Origin: Neobacillus driksii
GTDB taxonomy: Bacteria; Bacillota; Bacilli; Bacillales; Cytobacillaceae
Direction of reading: 5' to 3'
Length of the DNA stretch: 64,000 nucleotides
Assembly (NCBI RefSeq): GCF_013409995.1
Contig: NZ_JACCBX010000018.1
Span: forward strand, 1-64,000
A model generated the notes under the pieces. The model made no database searches. It was not told the DNA's origin and was given only the letters and a program-made list of their open reading frames with translations. Position numbers and translations under genes: made by a program. Of the stretch, positions 9,431 to 55,725 are shown one piece after another. Within the stretch, counting starts at the first letter, position 1. Each line of letters opens with the position of its first letter.

Positions 9431-10768
9431 ATGAATAAGTCTGGAAAATTGCTCTTCTCAATAGCTGTCAGCTTTGTATTAATAGGAACCGTCTTTACTC
9501 GTACGGTTGGAGCAATGGTCATTGATAATACTGTGGATATTAGAAATATCATTTTTCTAATTGGTGATGGTATGGGTGTTTCGGTCACTTCGGGGTACCG
9601 TTATTTTAAAGATAATCCTGCCACTTTAGAATTAGAATCAACAGAATTTGGACCGTACCTTGTTGGCCAGCAGACGACCTACCCAAATGATCCAAGGCAT
9701 AATGTAACTGATTCTGCTGCTTCGGCAACGGCAATGGCAACAGGTGTGAAGACCTATAATGGGGCGATTGGGATTAGCAATGACCATACGAAGTTAAAAT
9801 CAGTCCTTGAAGCGGCGAAGGAAAAAGGGAAGGGAACAGGGCTGGTTGCCACAGCGCAAATGACTCATGGCACTCCTGCAGCTTTTGGTGCTCATGTTGA
9901 CCAGCGAAAGAGCATGAGCGCCATTGCAGATGATTATTTTGATGACTTAGTTAATGGTAAGCATAAAATTGATGTATTGCTTGGTGGAGGTTCAGAATGG
10001 TTTATCCGTAAAGATAGGAACTTAGTTAATGAGTTTGTTAAAGATGGCTACAGCTACGTAACGAACGTGAATGGGATGAATAATGACCAAAGTGCTCAGG
10101 TGTTAGGTCTTTTTGCAAAAAGAGGGCTGCCGAAAATGATAGATCGTTCAAATGACATTCCATCTCTTGCAGACATGACCACTTCTGCAATCGAGCGGCT
10201 GAATCAGAATGAAAAAGGCTTTTTTCTAATGGTGGAAGGAAGTCAGATTGACTGGGCTGCACATGACAATGATATCGTGGGTGTCATGAGTGAAATGGAA
10301 GATTTCGAGAAAGCATTTAAAGTAGCGATTGATTTTGCTAAAAAGGATGGACATACATTGGTTATCGCCACAGCGGATCATTCAACCGGGGGATTCACGA
10401 TAGGGGCGCAAGGACAATACAATTGGTTTAGTTCTGTAATAAAAACAGTCAAGAGAACACCTAACTATATGGCTTCTGAGATCTTCAAAGGAGCGGGAGT
10501 TAAAGAAACGTTAACGAAATATATTGAGATTCCTTTAACAGAAAATGAAATAAGATATGTTGAAAGAGCAGCAAGAACACTAAAAGCAAGAAACATCGAC
10601 AATGCCATCGAAGAAATCATTAACAACCGATCCTACACTGGCTGGACAACCAGTGGACACACAGGCGAAGATGTAAACGTCTATGCCTACGGTCCAGGAA
10701 GTGAGCGCCTGAGGGGCCAAATCGACAACACTGATCATGCCAAAATCATCTTTGATATTCTTCGTTGA
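9431..10768 (+). CDS. Secreted alkaline phosphatase (PhoA family)
   Basis: This phosphomonoesterase (445 aa) releases phosphate from organic esters outside the membrane. An N-terminal hydrophobic signal (about 6-27) precedes the first metal-binding motif IFLIGDGMG. The catalytic serine is in TDSAASATAMATG (Ser95). Later come HGTPAAFGAH, MVEGSQIDWAAHDND, TADHSTGG and a C-terminal TSGHTGEDV, which supply the zinc and magnesium ligands. All key motifs are present and the length is normal for Bacillus PhoA/PhoB. The start follows GGGGGAAAGCAGG. The upstream 11-bp-phased hexamers suggest PhoPR control under phosphate limitation. Confidence 0.95.
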   Translation: MNKSGKLLFSIAVSFVLIGTVFTRTVGAMVIDNTVDIRNIIFLIGDGMGVSVTSGYRYFKDNPATLELESTEFGPYLVGQQTTYPNDPRHNVTDSAASATAMATGVKTYNGAIGISNDHTKLKSVLEAAKEKGKGTGLVATAQMTHGTPAAFGAHVDQRKSMSAIADDYFDDLVNGKHKIDVLLGGGSEWFIRKDRNLVNEFVKDGYSYVTNVNGMNNDQSAQVLGLFAKRGLPKMIDRSNDIPSLADMTTSAIERLNQNEKGFFLMVEGSQIDWAAHDNDIVGVMSEMEDFEKAFKVAIDFAKKDGHTLVIATADHSTGGFTIGAQGQYNWFSSVIKTVKRTPNYMASEIFKGAGVKETLTKYIEIPLTENEIRYVERAARTLKARNIDNAIEEIINNRSYTGWTTSGHTGEDVNVYAYGPGSERLRGQIDNTDHAKIIFDILR

Positions 10769-10973: not shown

Positions 10974-12068
10974 ATGAATAAACTAGTGAAGGGCGCAGTT
11001 TTGACTCTCTTTATTTGTTTGGGTTTGTCCGCTTGTGGAGAGCAGGAGAAGGTGAAGGCACCCACGAATCTGCCAACAGAGGAGCAGAGTAAAGCGCAAG
11101 GGGATGAAATTGAGCCCAAGGAGCTGCTAACGAGCCTTCGAAATCATACAAATCTTGTCCCAATCGGTGACGTACCAATCCCAGCCGATAATCCGATGAA
11201 GCCAGAAGTGCTTGAACTTGGACAAATGTTATTTTTTGACCCGCGTCTATCAGGCAATAACGAGGTAAGCTGCCAAACTTGTCATGACCCGAATATGGGC
11301 TATGGAGACAATCAGCCTACTTTTGATACGTTTACTGGCGGTAAAGGAGCAAGGAATAGCCCGACGGTGATAAATTCCGGGTATTACATGTCCAACTTTT
11401 GGGATGGCCGTGCTGCCTCCCTAGAGGAGCAAGCGCTTGGTCCGATTCAAAATCCAGATGAGATGAATCAGCCTCTTGATAAACTTATAAAAGAACTATC
11501 AGTTATCAAAGGTTACCAGGAACGTTTTCAGGCTGCATTCTCTGATGGAATCACCGAGCAAAATATTGCTAAAGCGCTAGCTGCCTTTCAAAGGCAAATT
11601 GTTGTAAAGGATACTCCTTACGATAGGTTCCTTGAGGGAGAGACAAAGGCATTAACCAAACAGGAAGTCAGCGGGCTCCGTTTATTTACAGGAAAAGCAT
11701 TTTGTGTAACCTGCCATAATGGACCCAATCTTTCTGATAACAATTTTTACAATATCGGTCTCAATACAGAGGACAATGGCCGCCAAGTGGTAACCGGGCA
11801 AGAAGGGGATTTAGGCAGAATACGCACCCCTGGATTATATGGAATTACCCATACAGCACCATACATGAGGGATGGAAGTCTCGCAACGCTTGAGGATGTA
11901 ATCGACTACTATGACCGCGGCGGGGATAGCCATCCCAATAAGAGCCTCTTTATTCAAAAGTTTATGAGTCCGATTGGCTTAACAGACCAGGAGAAGGCGG
12001 ATCTACTAGCGTTTCTAAAAACCTTAGGCGGAGAAACGCCAATTTTTACAAAACCAGAACTTCCTTAA
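10974..12068 (+). CDS. Di-haem cytochrome c peroxidase / MauG-family lipoprotein
   Basis: A lipoprotein signal with lipobox LSAC (Cys near residue 22) should anchor this 364-residue protein on the outer face of the membrane. Two c-type haem motifs are visible: CQTCH (Cys100) and CVTCH (Cys244). Between and after them lie conserved family segments (LGQMLFFDPRLSGNNEVSC, GARNSPTVINSGY, FWDGRAASLEEQA, APYMRDGSL). The family reduces hydrogen peroxide with electrons from small cytochromes, or oxidises protein side chains (MauG). Nothing nearby suggests a MauG target, so peroxidase is the default. It is monocistronic, between a repeat element and a strong terminator. Confidence 0.92.
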   Translation: MNKLVKGAVLTLFICLGLSACGEQEKVKAPTNLPTEEQSKAQGDEIEPKELLTSLRNHTNLVPIGDVPIPADNPMKPEVLELGQMLFFDPRLSGNNEVSCQTCHDPNMGYGDNQPTFDTFTGGKGARNSPTVINSGYYMSNFWDGRAASLEEQALGPIQNPDEMNQPLDKLIKELSVIKGYQERFQAAFSDGITEQNIAKALAAFQRQIVVKDTPYDRFLEGETKALTKQEVSGLRLFTGKAFCVTCHNGPNLSDNNFYNIGLNTEDNGRQVVTGQEGDLGRIRTPGLYGITHTAPYMRDGSLATLEDVIDYYDRGGDSHPNKSLFIQKFMSPIGLTDQEKADLLAFLKTLGGETPIFTKPELP

Positions 12069-12124: not shown

Positions 12125-13108
12125 TTATTTTATTGAGGTTTCTAACTTTTTTATTACCTTTTTATATTGTTTAATAGAGGTTAATTTACCAGTATAGGAT
12201 ACTTGGTTTTGATAATCTAAGGAAATGAACATAATAGCAAGCTTAGGGAAAAATTTCTTAGACCGGAACCGAAGGTCTTTCCAATAAATGAAATAACCGT
12301 TTTTTCTCTTTTGAACAAAAGGGTATGCGAAGTGGGTACTTCTTAAAAAGCTTTCTACTTCAGGGTTCTGACTGCTATCGATTACTAACTCAAGGTAATC
12401 TATTTTTTTGGAAAAAGTATGCTCTATCGATAACTCGCCCCTTGAGTAAGAACCAAATAAAAAGTCCTGATTGGTTTCAATCATAATATTCCAGTGGAAT
12501 GGTGATGTTTTAGGAATCATTTTTACATGAAGTGCATTTTGAAAATGCTGTAAAAGCGCCCATTTCGTGTATTGTGTATAAATGAACCGAGCCAGCAAGT
12601 AAAAAAACATTGCTAGATAAACGAAAGTAAAGACTCTCCCAGTTTCAAAAAAAGGAAGCAGGCAAAGTCCAAGAATATGGAGCATGATGATATATGGGTC
12701 GATTAAGGGGAGGAAATCTAGAGACAGCCATTTCGCAGAAAATGGGCGTAGAGCTTGCGTCCCATTAACATTAAACAGATCTAAAAGAACATGTAAGGTA
12801 ACGGAAAGCAATATCCATAAAAACAAGTGGGAAATAGAGATTCCTTGGAAGAATGGCAAAATTGCTGCTGTAGTAAGTATGCTCCATAAAGGGATTGCAG
12901 GCAGTGAGTGCGACCAACCCCGATGATTCCGGTAATAAGTGCTTTTCCCCTTTAATCGATAGCAAAAGTCAAAGTCAGGTGCGTTGGATCCGACTACTGT
13001 TCCGATAAGGACTGCAGTCGATAATACGCTATTATTTGAAATCACTGGATCCATTTGAGCAAGAGCACCTAGGCCGAAGCCGAATATAATGTGAGAAACT
13101 GTATCCAT
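12125..13108 (-). CDS. YfhP-like membrane-bound metal-dependent hydrolase family protein
   Basis: This 327-residue protein begins MDTVSHIIFGFGLGALA and carries SNAPDFDF and RGWSHSLPAI in its first 80 residues. These are the His/Asp motifs of the YdjM/YfhP (DUF457) membrane hydrolase family. Several transmembrane helices span about 25-175, and the C-terminal ~130 residues are soluble. Length and start match Bacillus YfhP as I remember it. Its reaction is unknown. It is the last gene of the minus-strand operon and starts 24 bp after the glycosyltransferase stop, so it may act on the same lipid or polymer. Confidence 0.75.
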   Translation of the reverse strand: MDTVSHIIFGFGLGALAQMDPVISNNSVLSTAVLIGTVVGSNAPDFDFCYRLKGKSTYYRNHRGWSHSLPAIPLWSILTTAAILPFFQGISISHLFLWILLSVTLHVLLDLFNVNGTQALRPFSAKWLSLDFLPLIDPYIIMLHILGLCLLPFFETGRVFTFVYLAMFFYLLARFIYTQYTKWALLQHFQNALHVKMIPKTSPFHWNIMIETNQDFLFGSYSRGELSIEHTFSKKIDYLELVIDSSQNPEVESFLRSTHFAYPFVQKRKNGYFIYWKDLRFRSKKFFPKLAIMFISLDYQNQVSYTGKLTSIKQYKKVIKKLETSIK

Positions 13109-13132: not shown

Positions 13133-14275
13133 TCATGCGTATATTTTCTTTGAGGGTTCTTCGATAACGGCAGAATAATGGTTTAGGAGGTTATCAAATA
13201 TCTGATCCCACCTTTGAGTAAGTGCATACTTCCTAGCATTTAACGACATTTGATTCCGGTAATGATCATTTCCAAACAACTGAACAATACGGTCAACAAA
13301 ATCTTTTGGATTACCTGGCTCACACAAATGTCCGGTAATACCGTTTGAAATAATATGTTTTACTCCGCCAGCATTCGCCCCGATTACCGGTGTCCCACTT
13401 GCAAGAGCCTCTAACACAACATTTCCAAACGTTTCAGTTGGCGATGGAAAAATAAATAGGTCTGTCGCTGAATAGACCTCAGCTAATCCCACTCCTTTCA
13501 AATAACCAGTAAAGGTCATATTTGGCAATGCAGCCATTTGGAGTTCTTCAAGTAAGGGACCATCTCCGGCAATTAACCAATGTACCTGGTTATTCAACTC
13601 GGGTGGTAGTGAGTTTGCGATTTTCATAAGAGTTTTTAAATCTTTTTCGGGTGCCAGCCTGCCAACATAAGTAAGGAGAAATTTTTTAGAAATCCCGTAT
13701 TGATTAAAAACAACCTCTTTTTGATAATTTGGATGATAGAGCTGGCAGTCAACGCCTCTCGGGAAAATTTCTAAATTTCTAAACCCGCGGTTTTTTAATT
13801 TTTCCAATGTATCAATGGAAGGGACAAAGAGCTTTTTAAAAGGACTATGAAACCATTTCATATATTTCCAAAGAGGATTAGAAAGGAACTCAAGGTCATA
13901 AAAATGTAAATAGTCATTGAAATCAGTGTGATAAGAGCCGACAATTGGGATATTAAATTTTTTCGCAAAGTAAACACCACAAAGGCCAACAGTAAATGGG
14001 GTAGCTACATGAATCAAGTCGGGAGAGAATTGCTCGATTTCTGATTTAACTTGGATAAAGTTTGGAAATGCTAATCGGCATTCCGGATATAGAAAAAAGG
14101 GCCTGCTTTTTAACCGATGAATATGATCTGATACATATTCATTTGAAACGGGATTAGGTGCGAATACTTTAAAGGAAATATGTTGCCCCTCAAGATAGTT
14201 TGTAAATTTTTTGATGGTTTGGGCAACCCCGTTGATATCCGGATAAAAGGTGTCAGTGAAAATTGCAATTTTCAT
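13133..14275 (-). CDS. GT4-family glycosyltransferase (Agt/SqdX/MgtA-like)
   Basis: The 380-residue protein starts MKIAIFTDTFYPDINGVAQTI, the N-terminal glycine-rich acceptor motif of GT4 retaining transferases that glycosylate diacylglycerol or phosphatidylinositol. The nucleotide-sugar domain has LTYVGRLAPEKDL and the E-x7-E motif in SPTETFGNVVLEALASGTPVI. It has no transmembrane helix and should be cytoplasmic or membrane-peripheral. Co-transcription with UDP-glucose dehydrogenase suggests UDP-glucuronate or UDP-glucose as donor. The adjacent PAP2 phosphatase suggests a lipid acceptor. The family call is firm; donor and acceptor are inferred. Confidence 0.88.
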   Translation of the reverse strand: MKIAIFTDTFYPDINGVAQTIKKFTNYLEGQHISFKVFAPNPVSNEYVSDHIHRLKSRPFFLYPECRLAFPNFIQVKSEIEQFSPDLIHVATPFTVGLCGVYFAKKFNIPIVGSYHTDFNDYLHFYDLEFLSNPLWKYMKWFHSPFKKLFVPSIDTLEKLKNRGFRNLEIFPRGVDCQLYHPNYQKEVVFNQYGISKKFLLTYVGRLAPEKDLKTLMKIANSLPPELNNQVHWLIAGDGPLLEELQMAALPNMTFTGYLKGVGLAEVYSATDLFIFPSPTETFGNVVLEALASGTPVIGANAGGVKHIISNGITGHLCEPGNPKDFVDRIVQLFGNDHYRNQMSLNARKYALTQRWDQIFDNLLNHYSAVIEEPSKKIYA

Positions 14276-14307: not shown

Positions 14308-14835
14308 TTAGGTTAAAAAATAAGAGCACAGAATGCCAAAGAGCGTCCCTAGAAATCCTCCTGCAATCACGTCCGATGGATAATGCAGACCTAAATAAAT
14401 CCTTGAAATTCCTACAAATAGTCCTAAAGGAATCAGAACTGCGGCTAGAACAGGGTTTAGAATAACAAATGGAACAATGACTGAGAATACGGCTGTTGTA
14501 TGTCCAGACGGAAAAGAATGATCCTTCAAAGGGTTCGGTAAAATCTTTGTTGTTTCAATTAATATATAGGGTCTTTTACGAGGGAAAAGCTTCTTTACCA
14601 CTTGGACCGGTATATGACTTAGGGCTAGGGCTGCCGCGCTTGATATCGCTGTAAGCCTGGTTGCACCCGATGTAAAAATGATGAGTAACAGGGTCGTTAC
14701 ACTTATAAACAATGCTCCTCCTATTCCGGTAACTGTACGAAAAAAGAGATTAATAAGTTTTTTATCAAAATGGCTATTGATCTCTTGAAAAACCCTGCAT
14801 TCAAAATGATAAAAGGATTGGATTATTCTCATCAT
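14308..14835 (-). CDS. PAP2-family membrane phosphatase
   Basis: This 175-residue membrane protein has all three parts of the PAP2 active site: KLFPRKRPY (KX6RP type), PSGHTT, and SRIYLGLHYPSDVIAG (SRX5HX3D). About five transmembrane helices surround them, placing the active site at the outer face. The family dephosphorylates phosphatidate, phosphatidylglycerol phosphate or undecaprenyl pyrophosphate. Sitting between a UDP-sugar dehydrogenase and a GT4 transferase, 20 bp after the former, it could supply diacylglycerol as acceptor. Recycling a polyprenyl carrier is the alternative. Confidence 0.9.
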   Translation of the reverse strand: MMRIIQSFYHFECRVFQEINSHFDKKLINLFFRTVTGIGGALFISVTTLLLIIFTSGATRLTAISSAAALALSHIPVQVVKKLFPRKRPYILIETTKILPNPLKDHSFPSGHTTAVFSVIVPFVILNPVLAAVLIPLGLFVGISRIYLGLHYPSDVIAGGFLGTLFGILCSYFLT

Positions 14836-14854: not shown

Positions 14855-16183
14855 TTACAGACGTTGGGCGGACTTTACAGTCGATATAGTTGGTCTTCCA
14901 ATGGATACGTAAGTAATCGGATATCGTTGAATGTCATTTAGGGAATAGCAATTCCGTCCATCGAAAATAATCGGTTCCTTCATATAGGTCATATAAGCAT
15001 CGAATGGAAGGTGCTTTATTTGGTCCCACTCTGTTGCGATGAAAGCAAAGTCAGCCCCTTTTAGCGCTTCACGAATATTTGTCGTATACTCAATTGAATT
15101 TCCTATGAGTTTATGGGCATTGGGAATAGCAATCGGGTCATAAGCAGTGACAAGTGAACCTTCTTCTAGTAATTCTTTAATAATCGTTAAGGAAACGGCT
15201 TCACGGATATCATCCGTTTCAGGTTTAAAAGCAAGCCCTAGTAAGGCGGCTTTTTTTCCTTTTAATGAACCGAGCATTTCTTTTGCCTTCTTTACTAGAA
15301 GGGAATGCTGCTGCAGATTTACTTTAATCACGGATTCAAGTAATTCGAACGGATGTTGGACATTTCCTGCTAGTTGAACAAGAGCTTTTGTGTCCTTTGG
15401 AAAGCATGAACCTCCATAACCAATTCCGGGCTGAAGATAGTTAGCTCCAATTCGTTTATCCATTCCCATGCCATTAGAGACTTCCTCAATATTCGCGCCA
15501 ACTATTTCGCAGAGATTGGCAATTTCATTGATAAAGCTTATCTTCGTTGCAAGAAAGGCATTGGAGGCATATTTAATCATCTCTGCACTTCTAATATCAG
15601 TGACAACTATCGGTATTTTTAATGGAAGATAGAGTTGCTCTATAATGGAAGCTGCCTCAGGGTTATCTGCGCCAATTACGATTCGATCTGCTAAATAGAA
15701 GTCCATTATGGCTGAACCCTCGCGAAGAAATTCAGGGTTTGACACAACATCAACTTTCAGGTGGTGTGGCTTACGATTCTGGAAAATTTGCTTGATGATC
15801 TCGTTTGTTCCAACTGGGACGGTACTTTTCGTACAGACAATGACGTCATTCTCAATATTTTCAGCAATGTGGTAGGAAGCAATATAAATATAGGATAAAT
15901 CAACAGAACCATCTTTTTTTTCAGGAGTTCCGACTGCAATAAAAATGATTTCTGCACCACGATAGGCTTCTTTTGGGTTCGTCGAAAAGCGGAGCCGCCC
16001 GCTAGCGAGGTTCTTTTCTAATAAAGGTTCCAGTCCAGGCTCAAAGAATGGAGAGTGTCCTTTTTCGAGCATTTCTATTTTCTCTTTTTGAGTATCTAAA
16101 CAGGTTACTCGATGACCTGCTTCTGCGAAACATACTGCTGTAACTAGCCCAACATTTCCTGCTCCTGCAACTGTAATCCTCAT
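14855..16183 (-). CDS. ugd: UDP-glucose 6-dehydrogenase
   Basis: This enzyme (442 aa) oxidises UDP-glucose to UDP-glucuronate with two NAD. The N-terminal Rossmann motif GAGNVGLVTA is followed by the VGTP segment, STVPVGT and NPEFLREGSA. The catalytic cysteine lies in GYGGSCFPKD (Cys260). The C-terminal UDP-binding domain has AFKPETDDIREA. All active-site parts are intact. It is the first gene of a minus-strand operon (ugd, PAP2, GT4, yfhP-like). A ribosome site GGAGGG precedes the ATG, and a four-repeat PhoP-type box lies 57-95 bp upstream. TuaD of B. subtilis is the same enzyme, but the tua genes are absent here. Confidence 0.94.
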   Translation of the reverse strand: MRITVAGAGNVGLVTAVCFAEAGHRVTCLDTQKEKIEMLEKGHSPFFEPGLEPLLEKNLASGRLRFSTNPKEAYRGAEIIFIAVGTPEKKDGSVDLSYIYIASYHIAENIENDVIVCTKSTVPVGTNEIIKQIFQNRKPHHLKVDVVSNPEFLREGSAIMDFYLADRIVIGADNPEAASIIEQLYLPLKIPIVVTDIRSAEMIKYASNAFLATKISFINEIANLCEIVGANIEEVSNGMGMDKRIGANYLQPGIGYGGSCFPKDTKALVQLAGNVQHPFELLESVIKVNLQQHSLLVKKAKEMLGSLKGKKAALLGLAFKPETDDIREAVSLTIIKELLEEGSLVTAYDPIAIPNAHKLIGNSIEYTTNIREALKGADFAFIATEWDQIKHLPFDAYMTYMKEPIIFDGRNCYSLNDIQRYPITYVSIGRPTISTVKSAQRL

Positions 16184-16213
16184 CTTATCCCTCCAAATAA
16201 CAGTGTTTGCTTA

Positions 16214-16278
16214 ATTTTATCTGAAAAGTTTGAATTTTTCCTTAACCTAGTGTTAAAAGAGTGTAAAGACTTTGTATA
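16214..16278 (-). promoter_or_regulatory. PhoP box and promoter of the ugd operon
   Basis: Read on the minus strand, hexamers TATACA (16278), TTTACA (16267), TTAACA (16256) and TTAAGG (16245) start at exact 11-bp steps. Three of the four fit the PhoP consensus TT(A/C/T)A(A/C/T)A, or miss it by one base. A -10-like TAAAAT lies at 16219-16214, 20 bp after the last repeat. This is the arrangement known for PhoP-activated promoters in B. subtilis. Confidence 0.72.
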
Positions 16279-51999: not shown

Positions 52000-52063
52000 C
52001 AATGGATTTCTTTTACCTGATGTATTAAACTAAACATATAGTTTGAAAAGTGGAGGGACGACA

Positions 52064-53245
52064 ATGAATATCACAAAGTTAATAACTACATTTAGAGAAA
52101 TATTTGAGGTCCAGCCTGAGCAAGCATTCTTTGCTCCGGGGAGAATTAATTTAATTGGTGAACACACAGATTACAATGGTGGTCACGTATTTCCATGTGC
52201 TATTACTTATGGTACGTATGCCGTTGCAAAGAAAAGAGAGGACAATCTTGTCCGCCTCTATTCAGTAAACTTCCCAGATAAAGAAATCATTGAGTTTGAT
52301 CTAACACAATTAGAATATGAGAAACAGCATAATTGGGCAAATTACCCAAAGGGCATGATTCGTTATATAAAGGAAGCAGGATTTTCAATTCCATCTGGAT
52401 TTGAGTGTGTAATTGAAGGTAACATTCCCAATGGCGCAGGCCTATCCTCTTCTGCATCAATTGAGTTATTGACTGGTGTGCTCCTAGACGGGTTGTTTAA
52501 ATTAGGAATAGATCGCCTAGACATGATCAAGATTGGTAAAAGAGTTGAAAATGAATTTATTGGTGTCAACAGTGGCATTATGGATCAATTTGCGATTGGA
52601 ATGGGAAAAGAGGACGCTGGAATTTTGCTCGATTGCCAGACTTTAAACTTTCAGTATGCACCGATTCAACTTGATCACCACAAAATCTTAATTATGAATA
52701 CAAACAAACGCAGAGAACTTGCGGACTCGAAATACAATGAGCGCCGAGGAGAATGTGAAGAAGCCTTATCTCAGCTCCAGAAAAAGCTACCAATCGAAGC
52801 ACTTGGACAGCTGACAGAAGCGGAGTTTGATGAAAATCAATCATTAATCGCTAATGAAACCGTCCGTAAGCGTGCAAAGCATGCGGTATATGAAAATATG
52901 AGAACATTAAAGGCTCTTGAAGAACTGAAGGCAGGGAATCTAGAGGCGTTTGGGCAGCTGATGAATCAATCGCATATCTCGTTAAGAGACGATTATGAAG
53001 TGACCGGGGTTGAACTTGATAGCTTAGTCGAACCTGCATGGAAACAGCCAGGGGTTATTGGGGCGCGAATGACTGGAGCTGGGTTCGGAGGTTGTGCCAT
53101 TGCGATTGTTGAAAATGAACTGGTTGAGAGCTTTATTGAAAATGTTGGCGCCGCTTATCAGGACAAAATCGGCTATCAAGCGGATTTCTATGTTGCAAGT
53201 ATTGGTGATGGAGCAAAAGAGATTGAGATGGAGGGTGCTATTTAG
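52064..53245 (+). CDS. galK: Galactokinase
   Basis: The 393-residue GHMP kinase phosphorylates galactose at C1 with ATP. It has the galactokinase signature GRINLIGEHTDYNGGHVFPCAI, the ATP loop IPNGAGLSSSASIE and the C-terminal MTGAGFGGCAIAIV. ATG 52064 follows GGAGGG; the longer frame begins 21 bp earlier without a better site. It is the first gene of galK-galE-galT-galM-galR. It ends where galE begins (stop at 53243-53245, ATG at 53246). Confidence 0.96.
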   Translation: MNITKLITTFREIFEVQPEQAFFAPGRINLIGEHTDYNGGHVFPCAITYGTYAVAKKREDNLVRLYSVNFPDKEIIEFDLTQLEYEKQHNWANYPKGMIRYIKEAGFSIPSGFECVIEGNIPNGAGLSSSASIELLTGVLLDGLFKLGIDRLDMIKIGKRVENEFIGVNSGIMDQFAIGMGKEDAGILLDCQTLNFQYAPIQLDHHKILIMNTNKRRELADSKYNERRGECEEALSQLQKKLPIEALGQLTEAEFDENQSLIANETVRKRAKHAVYENMRTLKALEELKAGNLEAFGQLMNQSHISLRDDYEVTGVELDSLVEPAWKQPGVIGARMTGAGFGGCAIAIVENELVESFIENVGAAYQDKIGYQADFYVASIGDGAKEIEMEGAI

Positions 53246-54235
53246 ATGAGTATTCTTGTTTTAGGCGGTGCAGGCTATGTTGGTTCGCATGCTGTTTATC
53301 AGTTAATTGACCAGGGTTCTGAAGTGGTGGTTATCGATAATTTGCAAACAGGTCAACGAGATGCAGTACATCACAAGGCTCACTTTTATGAAGGTGATAT
53401 TCGAAGCCGTGAGTTTATGCGCTCTGTCTTTGAAAAAGAAAACATAGAAGCCATTCTCCATTTTGCAGCTAACTCTCTTGTTGGCGAATCGATGATTGAG
53501 CCGCTAAAATACTTTGATAACAATGTGTATGGTACACAAGTTGTGCTTGAAATGATGAAGGAATTTAATGTAAAGCACATCGTCTTTTCCTCAACAGCGG
53601 CAGTTTATGGTGAACAGAAGGTGGTGCCAATTAAGGAAGAGGCAGCTACTCTTCCAACCAACACCTATGGTGAAACGAAACTGACGATGGAAAAAATGAT
53701 TTCTTGGTGTGAGAAGGCATTCGATCTTAGGTATGTATCACTCCGCTATTTTAACGTAGCCTCAGCAAGAAGTGATGGGCAGATTGGAGAGGACCATAAT
53801 CCTGAAACCCACTTGATTCCTGTTGTATTAGAAGCTGCTTTAGGAAAAAGACCTGCTGTGACCGTCTTTGGTCAAGATTATGATACTGCAGACGGAACCT
53901 GTGTACGGGATTACATCCATGTTGAGGACTTGATTGATGCGCATCTTCTAGCACTCACGTATTTGCAAAATGGCGGGGAAAGTAATGTGTTCAATCTAGG
54001 CAGCAGTCAAGGGTTTTCTGTAAAGGAAATCATCGAGACAGCAAAAGAAGTAACAGGGATTGATATTCCGGTCCAATTCGGGGAACGCAGGTCTGGAGAC
54101 CCTAGTACATTAATTGCATCTTCGGAAAAAGCAAGAAGTGTGCTGGGCTGGAATCCAAGCAAGACTTCGATTCACCAAATTATCAGCGATGCATGGAATT
54201 GGCATCAACATCACCCAAATGGGTATGAGAGGTGA
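53246..54235 (+). CDS. galE: UDP-glucose 4-epimerase
   Basis: The 329-residue enzyme interconverts UDP-galactose and UDP-glucose. It has the NAD motif GGAGYVGSH, the catalytic Ser and Tyr-x3-Lys in SSTAAVYGE and YGETKLTMEKM, and the GTCVRDYIHVEDL motif typical of GalE. Translation starts right after galK and overlaps galT by 4 bp, so the operon is tightly coupled. Confidence 0.95.
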   Translation: MSILVLGGAGYVGSHAVYQLIDQGSEVVVIDNLQTGQRDAVHHKAHFYEGDIRSREFMRSVFEKENIEAILHFAANSLVGESMIEPLKYFDNNVYGTQVVLEMMKEFNVKHIVFSSTAAVYGEQKVVPIKEEAATLPTNTYGETKLTMEKMISWCEKAFDLRYVSLRYFNVASARSDGQIGEDHNPETHLIPVVLEAALGKRPAVTVFGQDYDTADGTCVRDYIHVEDLIDAHLLALTYLQNGGESNVFNLGSSQGFSVKEIIETAKEVTGIDIPVQFGERRSGDPSTLIASSEKARSVLGWNPSKTSIHQIISDAWNWHQHHPNGYER

Positions 54236-55725
54236 AGATCGTGATAGATCAACTAATCCAACAATTGATTAACAAGGCAATTTCTGCTCAATTAATCGAC
54301 TGTGATGATGAGATTTATGCTCGAAATCAAATTCTTTCACTCTTACGTTTAGTCGAGTTTAAGGACAGCGAAACAACAGAGTCAAATCTAGAGATTCCAG
54401 ACTTACTTGAGCAAATCGTGGATTTCGCCTGTGAGCAAGGCATTATTGAAGATATTTTTGATGAAAAAGAGATTTTTTCAAGTAAAGTCATGAATTGCTT
54501 TATCGCACGTCCATCAACTGTTAATCAGATTTTTTTTGAAAAATATAAACAGAATCCACAAGAGGCAACTGAGTATTTTTATGAGTTAAGCAAAAATAGC
54601 AACTATATTCAAATGAAGCGGATTCGTAATAATGTCGAGTACAAGGTGAGTACGAAATATGGTGAACTAGACATTACCATCAATTTATCAAAACCTGAGA
54701 AAGATCCTAGAAGCATTGCGCTAGAACGTACAGTCCAAAAAGCAAATTATCCAAAATGCTTACTTTGTATTGAGAATGAAGGGTATGCAGGGAGAATTGG
54801 ACATCCAGCACGCTCTAATCACCGTATGATCCGATTAAATCTTTCTGATGAGAAATGGCTTTTACAATATTCACCTTATGTTTACTATAATGAGCATTGT
54901 ATTGTGCTATCAGAAGACCATAGGGATATGAGAATTACTTCGGTGGCATTTCAAAGGCTGTTAAACTTTGTTGAGCAGTTTCCCCATTATTTTGTCGGGT
55001 CGAATGCTGATTTACCGATTGTTGGCGGTTCTATTCTTTCGCATGATCATTATCAAGGCGGACATTATGACTTTGCGATGGCCAAAGCGGAGGATGATTG
55101 GACATTTTCATTAGAGCAGTTCCCGAATGTTCAAGGTTCTGTTGTCAAATGGCCAATGTCCGTCATTCGATTACGTTCGAAAGAAACTGGACCACTTGTG
55201 GAAGCAGGCGAGCATATTTTATCACGCTGGCGAAATTACAGTGATGAAACAGTAGGAATTTATGCGAAAACAGGCGATATCCCGCATAATACGATTACAC
55301 CGATTGCACGTAAAAATCAAGAATTTTATGAACTGGATTTAGTCCTTCGGAACAACCGGACGAGCGAGGAGCATCCACTAGGAATTTTCCACCCTCATCA
55401 AGATGTTCATCATATTAAAAAGGAAAACATCGGGCTAATCGAAGTGATGGGTCTGGCTGTATTACCTGCACGCTTAAAAGATGAACTTGAGGAAGTTGAG
55501 AATTTCATTCTTGGAAAAACGGATTCTGTTGCTGAATATCATCTAGAATGGGCAAAAGGACTTAAAGAGGGCTATCAATCCGTTGTAACACCGTCAAATG
55601 TTGAAGCAATCGTCAGAGAAGAGACAGGGAAAAAGTTTTTAAAGGCATTAGAGGATGCGGGTGTTTTTAAAACAAATGAAGAAGGAAAAGCCGGATTTAA
55701 CCGCTTTATCTTGTCATTATTATAA
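54232..55725 (+). CDS. galT: Galactose-1-phosphate uridylyltransferase (Gram-positive type)
   Basis: The 497-residue enzyme exchanges galactose-1-phosphate with UDP-glucose. Length and sequence fit the Firmicutes class 2 GalT. The active-site HDHYQGG triad (in GGSILSHDHYQGGHY) and the cysteine-rich CLLCIENEGYAGRIGHPARSNH are present. It probably starts at GTG 54232 inside the galE stop, or at GTG 54241. It is followed after 70 bp by galM. Confidence 0.93.
   Translation: MKIVIDQLIQQLINKAISAQLIDCDDEIYARNQILSLLRLVEFKDSETTESNLEIPDLLEQIVDFACEQGIIEDIFDEKEIFSSKVMNCFIARPSTVNQIFFEKYKQNPQEATEYFYELSKNSNYIQMKRIRNNVEYKVSTKYGELDITINLSKPEKDPRSIALERTVQKANYPKCLLCIENEGYAGRIGHPARSNHRMIRLNLSDEKWLLQYSPYVYYNEHCIVLSEDHRDMRITSVAFQRLLNFVEQFPHYFVGSNADLPIVGGSILSHDHYQGGHYDFAMAKAEDDWTFSLEQFPNVQGSVVKWPMSVIRLRSKETGPLVEAGEHILSRWRNYSDETVGIYAKTGDIPHNTITPIARKNQEFYELDLVLRNNRTSEEHPLGIFHPHQDVHHIKKENIGLIEVMGLAVLPARLKDELEEVENFILGKTDSVAEYHLEWAKGLKEGYQSVVTPSNVEAIVREETGKKFLKALEDAGVFKTNEEGKAGFNRFILSLL

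Follow-up and report, generated by a model that had tools for sequence, protein, structure and literature searches.

The window analysed here is a 64,000-nucleotide stretch of Neobacillus driksii DNA (assembly GCF_013409995.1, contig NZ_JACCBX010000018.1, positions 1–64,000). Its minus strand carries a compact run of genes preceded by a PhoP-type box:

16240..16278, minus strand: PhoP-type box TATACA-N5-TTTACA-N5-TTAACA-N5-TTAAGG, read directly from the sequence
16214..16219, minus strand: probable -10 element TAAAAT, 20 nt after the fourth hexamer
16189..16194, minus strand: ribosome-binding site GGAGGG, read directly from the sequence
14855..16183, minus strand: ugd, UDP-glucose 6-dehydrogenase (TuaD-like; NCBIfam TuaD 549 bits, cut-off 700)
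14308..14835, minus strand: PAP2 membrane phosphatase (PF01569, 4.1e-24)
13133..14275, minus strand: GT4 glycosyltransferase (PF13439 and PF00534), proposed glucuronosyl-diacylglycerol synthase
12125..13108, minus strand: YdjM/YfhP-family membrane protein (PF04307, 4.9e-34), probable fourth gene

The genes are separated by 19 nt (ugd–PAP2), 32 nt (PAP2–GT4) and 24 nt (GT4–YdjM); ugd opens with an ATG at 16183 and the GT4 protein begins MKIAIFTDTFYPDINGV. Pfam and NCBIfam scans show that the first-pass annotation had called and placed ugd, the PAP2 gene, the GT4 gene and the YfhP-like gene correctly, and direct reading confirms the four hexamers at exact 11-bp spacing that it had reported. The ugd product remains below the cut-off of the TuaD model, carries three Pfam domains and the GGSCFPKD motif, and scores 458 bits against the NCBIfam nucleotide sugar dehydrogenase model (cut-off 189.8). 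Judged by patterns that we take to be diagnostic, the catalytic motifs are complete in all three enzymes: C1–C3 in PAP2, GGSCFPKD in Ugd and EX7E in the GT4. Convergent to the operon lie genes for an alkaline phosphatase (window 9431–10768) and a MauG/cytochrome c peroxidase (10974–12068), which still adjoin it in many close relatives, and galactokinase and hexose-1-phosphate uridylyltransferase genes are found at 52043–55725.

TTHACA is the PhoP hexamer consensus in B. subtilis, and direct repeats resembling it, spaced by 11 bp ahead of a start, the signature of a B. subtilis-type PhoP regulon, are what precedes ugd: TATACA (16278–16273), TTTACA (16267–16262), TTAACA (16256–16251) and TTAAGG (16245–16240), all on the minus strand and with a period of exactly 11 bp. 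When positions are scored for four TTHACA-like hexamers at this spacing with the B. subtilis consensus, the operon box comes out on top of all 127,924 window positions on both strands, and its score of 20.2 is reached by none of 2,000 first-order Markov sequences modelled on the 187-nt region upstream of the operon (maximum 19.0). A two-hexamer pattern allowing up to three mismatches is uninformative, its 141 occurrences in the window showing no enrichment over the 132.8 expected, so that the evidence for the box comes from the long regular array and from its conservation. In orthologous leaders compared by eye, a similar A/T-rich hexamer follows the fourth hexamer by about 20 nt. The Pho-like site that precedes the gene for alkaline phosphatase (score 17.0, start 9369) is weak and was set aside as not convincing, ranking sixth at best across the 12 loci compared.

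Conservation was assessed by ranking the best site upstream of the GT4 unit among all positions of the same locus. Within a set of 57 loci, comprising the window and 56 hand-picked loci that span the identity range, the box ranked first or second in 47 and scored at least 19 in 42 (counted from the listing), against 8 and 6, respectively, of 595 other genes; one of the 57, the SqdX-type locus L088, is counted among the misses. A second set of 80 named loci was reduced to 77 by a rule leaving out three without a GT4 frame, and here the box ranked first or second in 61 and scored at least 19 in 32. Removal of the 19 named loci that are the same DNA as in the first set leaves 58 further ones, with a box at rank 1–2 in 45, as opposed to 8 of 228 control genes. 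Across both sets, whose loci are related and hence not independent, 23 of 115 lack a box at this rank. The box precedes the unit whichever gene leads it, be it ugd, PAP2 or GT4.

Over the whole genome (6.5 Mb), a strict pattern of three hexamers, one mismatch being tolerated, has eight matches, versus one for the backwards control. One is the operon itself, and two, which overlap each other, are upstream of a gene for a PstS-family protein (308 bits against a cut-off of 206.6); among the other five, one precedes a Cof-type HAD phosphatase gene, another a gene resembling phosphoribosyl cyclic phosphodiesterase (248 of 500 bits), and three have no evident phosphate link (the matches outside the operon are loci L223–L229). 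Behind mdh (C10:137991) the same genome encodes a response regulator and a kinase, likely PhoP–PhoR by synteny on the assumption that the order mdh-phoP-phoR is diagnostic, though the pair falls below every model cut-off: the regulator reaches 278 of 340 bits for YycF, its best model, and 226 of 296 for PhoB, and the kinase 335 of 400 for PnpS. Together, the conservation of the box across species and gene orders and the strict box before the PstS-family gene uphold the Pho control proposed in the first-pass annotation; at the level of sequence such control is well supported, with PhoP binding itself as the predicted step.

To place the GT4 enzyme, its family profile (alignment A2) was scored against reference GT4s and the genome's own other GT4s. 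The highest score outside the family among those scored belongs to the SqdX-type protein L088 (292 bits), followed by an Acinetobacter GT4 encoded beside a PAP2 gene (283), P. aeruginosa Agt2 (274), a Sphingobium glycosyltransferase (231), an MgtA-like protein (209), a Listeria LafA-like protein (196) and four further references (149–187); for eight other GT4s encoded in the same genome the score does not exceed 100.5 bits. The Agt2 reference was recognised by its plcR, plcH and cerN neighbours, a neighbourhood that we take to be that of PA0842, and the MgtA-like reference by menD and ubiE-type neighbours, presumably a marker of MgtA; the LafA-like name, too, is our assumption, made from neighbours. 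In Acinetobacter (L112:3354–5228) the PAP2 gene directly follows a GT4 of the same wider group, a second pairing of this kind.

In the better of two trees (34 rows, midpoint root), the LafA-, MgtA-, Agt2- and SqdX-type rows and those of the operon GT4 split at 99/98 from BshA and two further GT4s of the N. driksii genome. The operon GT4 family forms one clade (98/99) and the SqdX-type proteins a second (100/100), the order of forks between the lipid GT4 clades not being settled; Agt2, despite its 274 bits to the family profile, forms no resolved joint clade with the operon GT4 in either tree. In the earlier tree of 41 rows the split of lipid GT4s from the others was weaker (61/78), with one own GT4 on a very long branch (L005) placed among the lipid enzymes and the GpgS-like L119 grouping with the other own GT4s. 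There is thus good sequence support for placing the operon GT4 with the lipid glycosyltransferases (SqdX-type, Agt2, MgtA), as its N-terminal motif had suggested at first pass: profile scores and the better tree bear this grouping out, its deep forks apart, and the enzyme stands apart from the three own GT4s in that tree rather than joining cell-wall or exopolysaccharide transferases. SqdX itself is ruled out as its identity by the neighbouring gene, which is ugd and not sqdB, and by the separate clade.

The family is common among Bacillales: a GT4 homologue at 1e-60 is present in 103 of 193 genomes of the taxonomic family and a match at the same threshold in 147 of the 299 genomes sampled from the order, 24 of these being SqdX-type only, as judged from best E-values. 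Named carriers include Neobacillus, Peribacillus, Cytobacillus, Mesobacillus, Metabacillus and Priestia, and further Bacillus sonorensis and haynesii, Anoxybacillus, Oceanobacillus, Halalkalibacterium and Paenibacillus.

The sugar donor can be approached through the company the GT4 gene keeps. Of the 115 loci, 49 have ugd in one run with GT4 (33/57 and 16/58) and 66 have none there, run counts being lower bounds that rise when tblastn hits on the same strand within 4 kb are taken instead (in the first 57 loci, from 33 to 35 for ugd and from 36 to 39 for PAP2). The orders found are ugd-pap2-GT4, ugd-GT4, pap2-GT4-ugd, GT4-ugd, GT4-ydjM-ugd and ydjM-ugd-pap2-GT4, and PAP2-GT4 occurs without ugd in 11/57 and 30/58 loci. 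At 1e-90, Ugd is present in 100 of 103 GT4-positive versus 60 of 90 GT4-negative genomes of the taxonomic family (Fisher p 1e-8, a value made too small by the relatedness of the genomes). The three exceptions are G012, G015 (where the GT4 is a fragment) and G174; G012 carries PAP2-GT4 with a rank-1 box and has lost ugd from a place that is otherwise syntenic in its sister G014. This boxed unit suggests that UDP-glucose may be an additional donor, as it is for Agt and GTcp, and the three Ugd-less genomes mean that glucuronate cannot be assumed as the sole donor everywhere. The recurrent linkage nonetheless makes UDP-glucuronate the likeliest donor, and the GT4 likely uses the glucuronate from it. 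The donor assignment of the first-pass annotation is accordingly likely where Ugd linkage recurs and weaker for the 66 loci without Ugd in the run and the 3 of 103 genomes without the enzyme. Four more Ugd genes occur in the N. driksii genome, two of them TuaD-like and two more distant, and the best box-like sites in their stretches score at most 18.4. Elsewhere (L099:8601–12347), a further ugd sits behind galU and before the gas-vesicle gene gvpA, the galU and GvpA models being passed.

The three catalytic motifs of PAP2 are kept in 37 of 38 cluster members, its best solved relative by sequence is LpxE (6ebu, 5.1e-12), and some GT4 units have no PAP2 gene. Members of the YdjM family occur in every one of the 41 genomes examined, this one having a second (C13), and in 5 of 57 loci a ydjM gene follows GT4 with neither ugd nor PAP2 in the run. 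Homologue comparison reveals conserved His and Asp residues in YdjM that suggest a metal site, whereas PDB sequence searches with the protein gave no match. A phospholipase C-like role, raised by these residues and by what we presume to be a Pfam clan link to such enzymes, gained no sequence support and stays a lead: when 13 homologues were scanned with Pfam, no phospholipase was among the hits, which besides YdjM were stray weak matches in one or two members each. When the neighbourhoods of the 57 loci are clustered (the groups being family-scanned in part), ugd, PAP2 and ydjM are the only genes widely recurrent in the run with GT4, while close relatives of the window repeatedly have RNase H-like, phoA, mauG and amidohydrolase genes around the operon. 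In eight of the loci (L079–L082, L094–L097), PAP2-GT4 or GT4 holds a constant position between ychF-like and rpsF-ssb-rpsR-like genes, as seen by eye.

Building on the box and its conservation, gene identities, family membership and linkage, we propose that the operon probably directs PhoP-induced synthesis of glucuronosyl-diacylglycerol, perhaps also of glucosyl-diacylglycerol, a scheme in which PhoP binding, donor, acceptor, product and physiological role are all predicted elements. When phosphate is scarce, phosphorylated PhoP would bind the four-hexamer box and turn on ugd-PAP2-GT4-ydjM; Ugd would oxidise UDP-glucose to UDP-glucuronate, and PAP2 would probably yield diacylglycerol by dephosphorylating phosphatidate or a similar lipid phosphate. 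The GT4 would then move glucuronate, or perhaps glucose, onto diacylglycerol, and the resulting acidic, phosphorus-free lipid could replace phosphatidylglycerol, with YdjM as a putative accessory membrane protein. The glucuronolipid scheme put forward at first pass thus keeps its Pho control, its lipid glycosyltransferase family and its Ugd linkage, whereas PAP2 is missing from some units and Ugd from the run in 66 of 115 loci. It is possible, although we would put it somewhat below even chances, that a PhoP-controlled lipid-remodelling module, widespread in Bacillales, produces glucuronosyl-diacylglycerol by its own route, with Ugd supplying the donor, a GT4 clade distinct from the SqdX-type and Agt2 enzymes, and PAP2 and/or YdjM replacing PlcP as the source of diacylglycerol.

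Other readings of the same genes have to be weighed against this one. The operon might make glucosyl- or mixed glycosyl-diacylglycerol, Ugd being frequent yet optional as with bifunctional Agt enzymes; the boxed PAP2-GT4 unit of Ugd-less G012 and the many PAP2-GT4 units without ugd speak for it, yet a repeated association with Ugd in several gene orders would be hard to account for if glucuronate went unused, and the presence of Ugd in nearly every GT4-positive genome also counts against it, so that we hold it to be unlikely, if the most serious of the alternatives. Far less probable is a teichuronic acid-like wall polymer replacing teichoic acid, as made by tua, with PAP2 recycling undecaprenyl diphosphate. 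Such a product would suit the TuaD-like score of Ugd (549 bits), the PhoP control of tua in B. subtilis and the best NCBIfam model of PAP2, undecaprenyl-diphosphatase, although this reaches 71 bits for a cut-off of 250; it is at odds with the narrow set of genes that recur with GT4 in the 57 clustered neighbourhoods, and with a GT4 that scores 77 bits against the TuaC model compared with 169 for its best lipid glycosyltransferase model and that stands apart from the genome's own GT4s.

That best model is GlcNAc-phosphatidylglycerol synthase (GpgS, NF053787), matched over its full length, and since its product is a modified phosphatidylglycerol, a phospholipid acceptor is possible. The GT4 could then glycosylate phosphatidylglycerol as GpgS does, for surface charge and not for phosphate saving; GpgS is a GT4 acting on this lipid, as proposed and shown by lipidomics in PMC12713373. 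The 169 bits are far below the cut-off of 480, though, and three reference enzymes share this best model, with 135 bits for Agt2, 134 for the MgtA-like and 159 for the SqdX-type protein. The match is therefore generic and does not name the substrate, which rules out GlcNAc-phosphatidylglycerol synthase as the specific identity. None of 398 sampled Bacillota genomes has a protein over the cut-off of this model, and NCBIfam and Pfam scans of the operon reveal no deacetylase encoded by any of its four genes, a further point against glycosylated phosphatidylglycerol; we rate this outcome as improbable as a wall polymer. Glucuronosyl-diacylglycerol synthesis under Pho control remains the reading we prefer; in mass spectrometry this lipid is marked by a neutral loss of 193 (PMC4796936).

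In bacilli, the known picture of phosphate starvation centres on the exchange of teichoic for teichuronic acid. If the proposal is true, this picture extends beyond wall polymers, and a large Gram-positive group, when short of phosphate, exchanges its phospholipid for an acidic glycolipid by means of a defined gene set. We found no title on an operon or lipid of this type in Bacillales in the open-licence literature, subscription papers lying outside the search, and as far as that literature goes no phosphate-sparing lipid exchange would have been genetically defined in Bacillus-type bacteria before this one. The Pho box and the GT4 clade together provide a clear marker, and simple tests are possible in culturable species.

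Several known systems share parts of this arrangement. The tua operon, a PhoP target in B. subtilis, likewise has a TuaD-like Ugd under a Pho box; here, in contrast, the unit has four genes with a lipid-type GT4 that scores just 77 bits with the TuaC model, and NCBIfam and Pfam scans find no polymer export or ligase gene among the four. MgtA, the actinobacterial mannosyltransferase of glucuronosyl-diacylglycerol, belongs to the same wider GT4 group but is 27% identical to the operon enzyme and acts downstream of the glucuronosyl step.

The SqdB–SqdX pair is closer in layout, its GT4, 33–37% identical to that of the operon, adjoining an enzyme that makes the UDP-sugar; the operon partner is instead Ugd, and the clades are separate, the SqdX-type rows being named by their SqdB neighbour in a tree without a characterised SqdX. 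In 15 of 20 SqdX-type loci the GT4 lies directly behind a homologue of the L088 UDP-sulfoquinovose synthase-like protein (itself at 480 bits for a cut-off of 575), 3 of these 15 homologues being 43–45% identical to the L088 protein and so possibly a related enzyme. The SqdX-type loci pair a donor enzyme with a GT4, as Ugd and GT4 would be paired in the operon. The best upstream box of SqdX-type units scores 12.5–17.5 and ranks first or second in 5 of 20 loci; L088:5731–8041 and L261–L280 are likely SqdB–SqdX sulfolipid genes in Bacillales, mostly without a Pho box.

The closest functional parallel is the PlcP–Agt response, represented by A. tumefaciens Agt, SAR11 GTcp and P. aeruginosa Agt2/PA0842, GT4 enzymes of the same wider lipid glycosyltransferase group that are likewise phosphate-controlled and whose glucuronosyl-diacylglycerol product is the one predicted for the operon. 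According to PMC8528852, PA0842/Agt2, which is 30.5% identical to the operon GT4 over 98% of the query, makes this lipid from UDP-glucuronate and diacylglycerol, is raised under phosphate depletion with a Pho box upstream, and as purified enzyme accepts UDP-glucose to some extent; Agt and GTcp use both UDP-sugars according to PMC8231724, a latitude that also lends weight to the glucosyl-lipid alternative. Conversely, the operon has a Gram-positive PhoP box, linked Ugd and PAP2 genes where no PlcP gene is present in the operon, and a GT4 clade of its own. By this analogy, it is most likely the Bacillales version of the proteobacterial PlcP–Agt response, with PAP2 and Ugd in the operon in place of PlcP.
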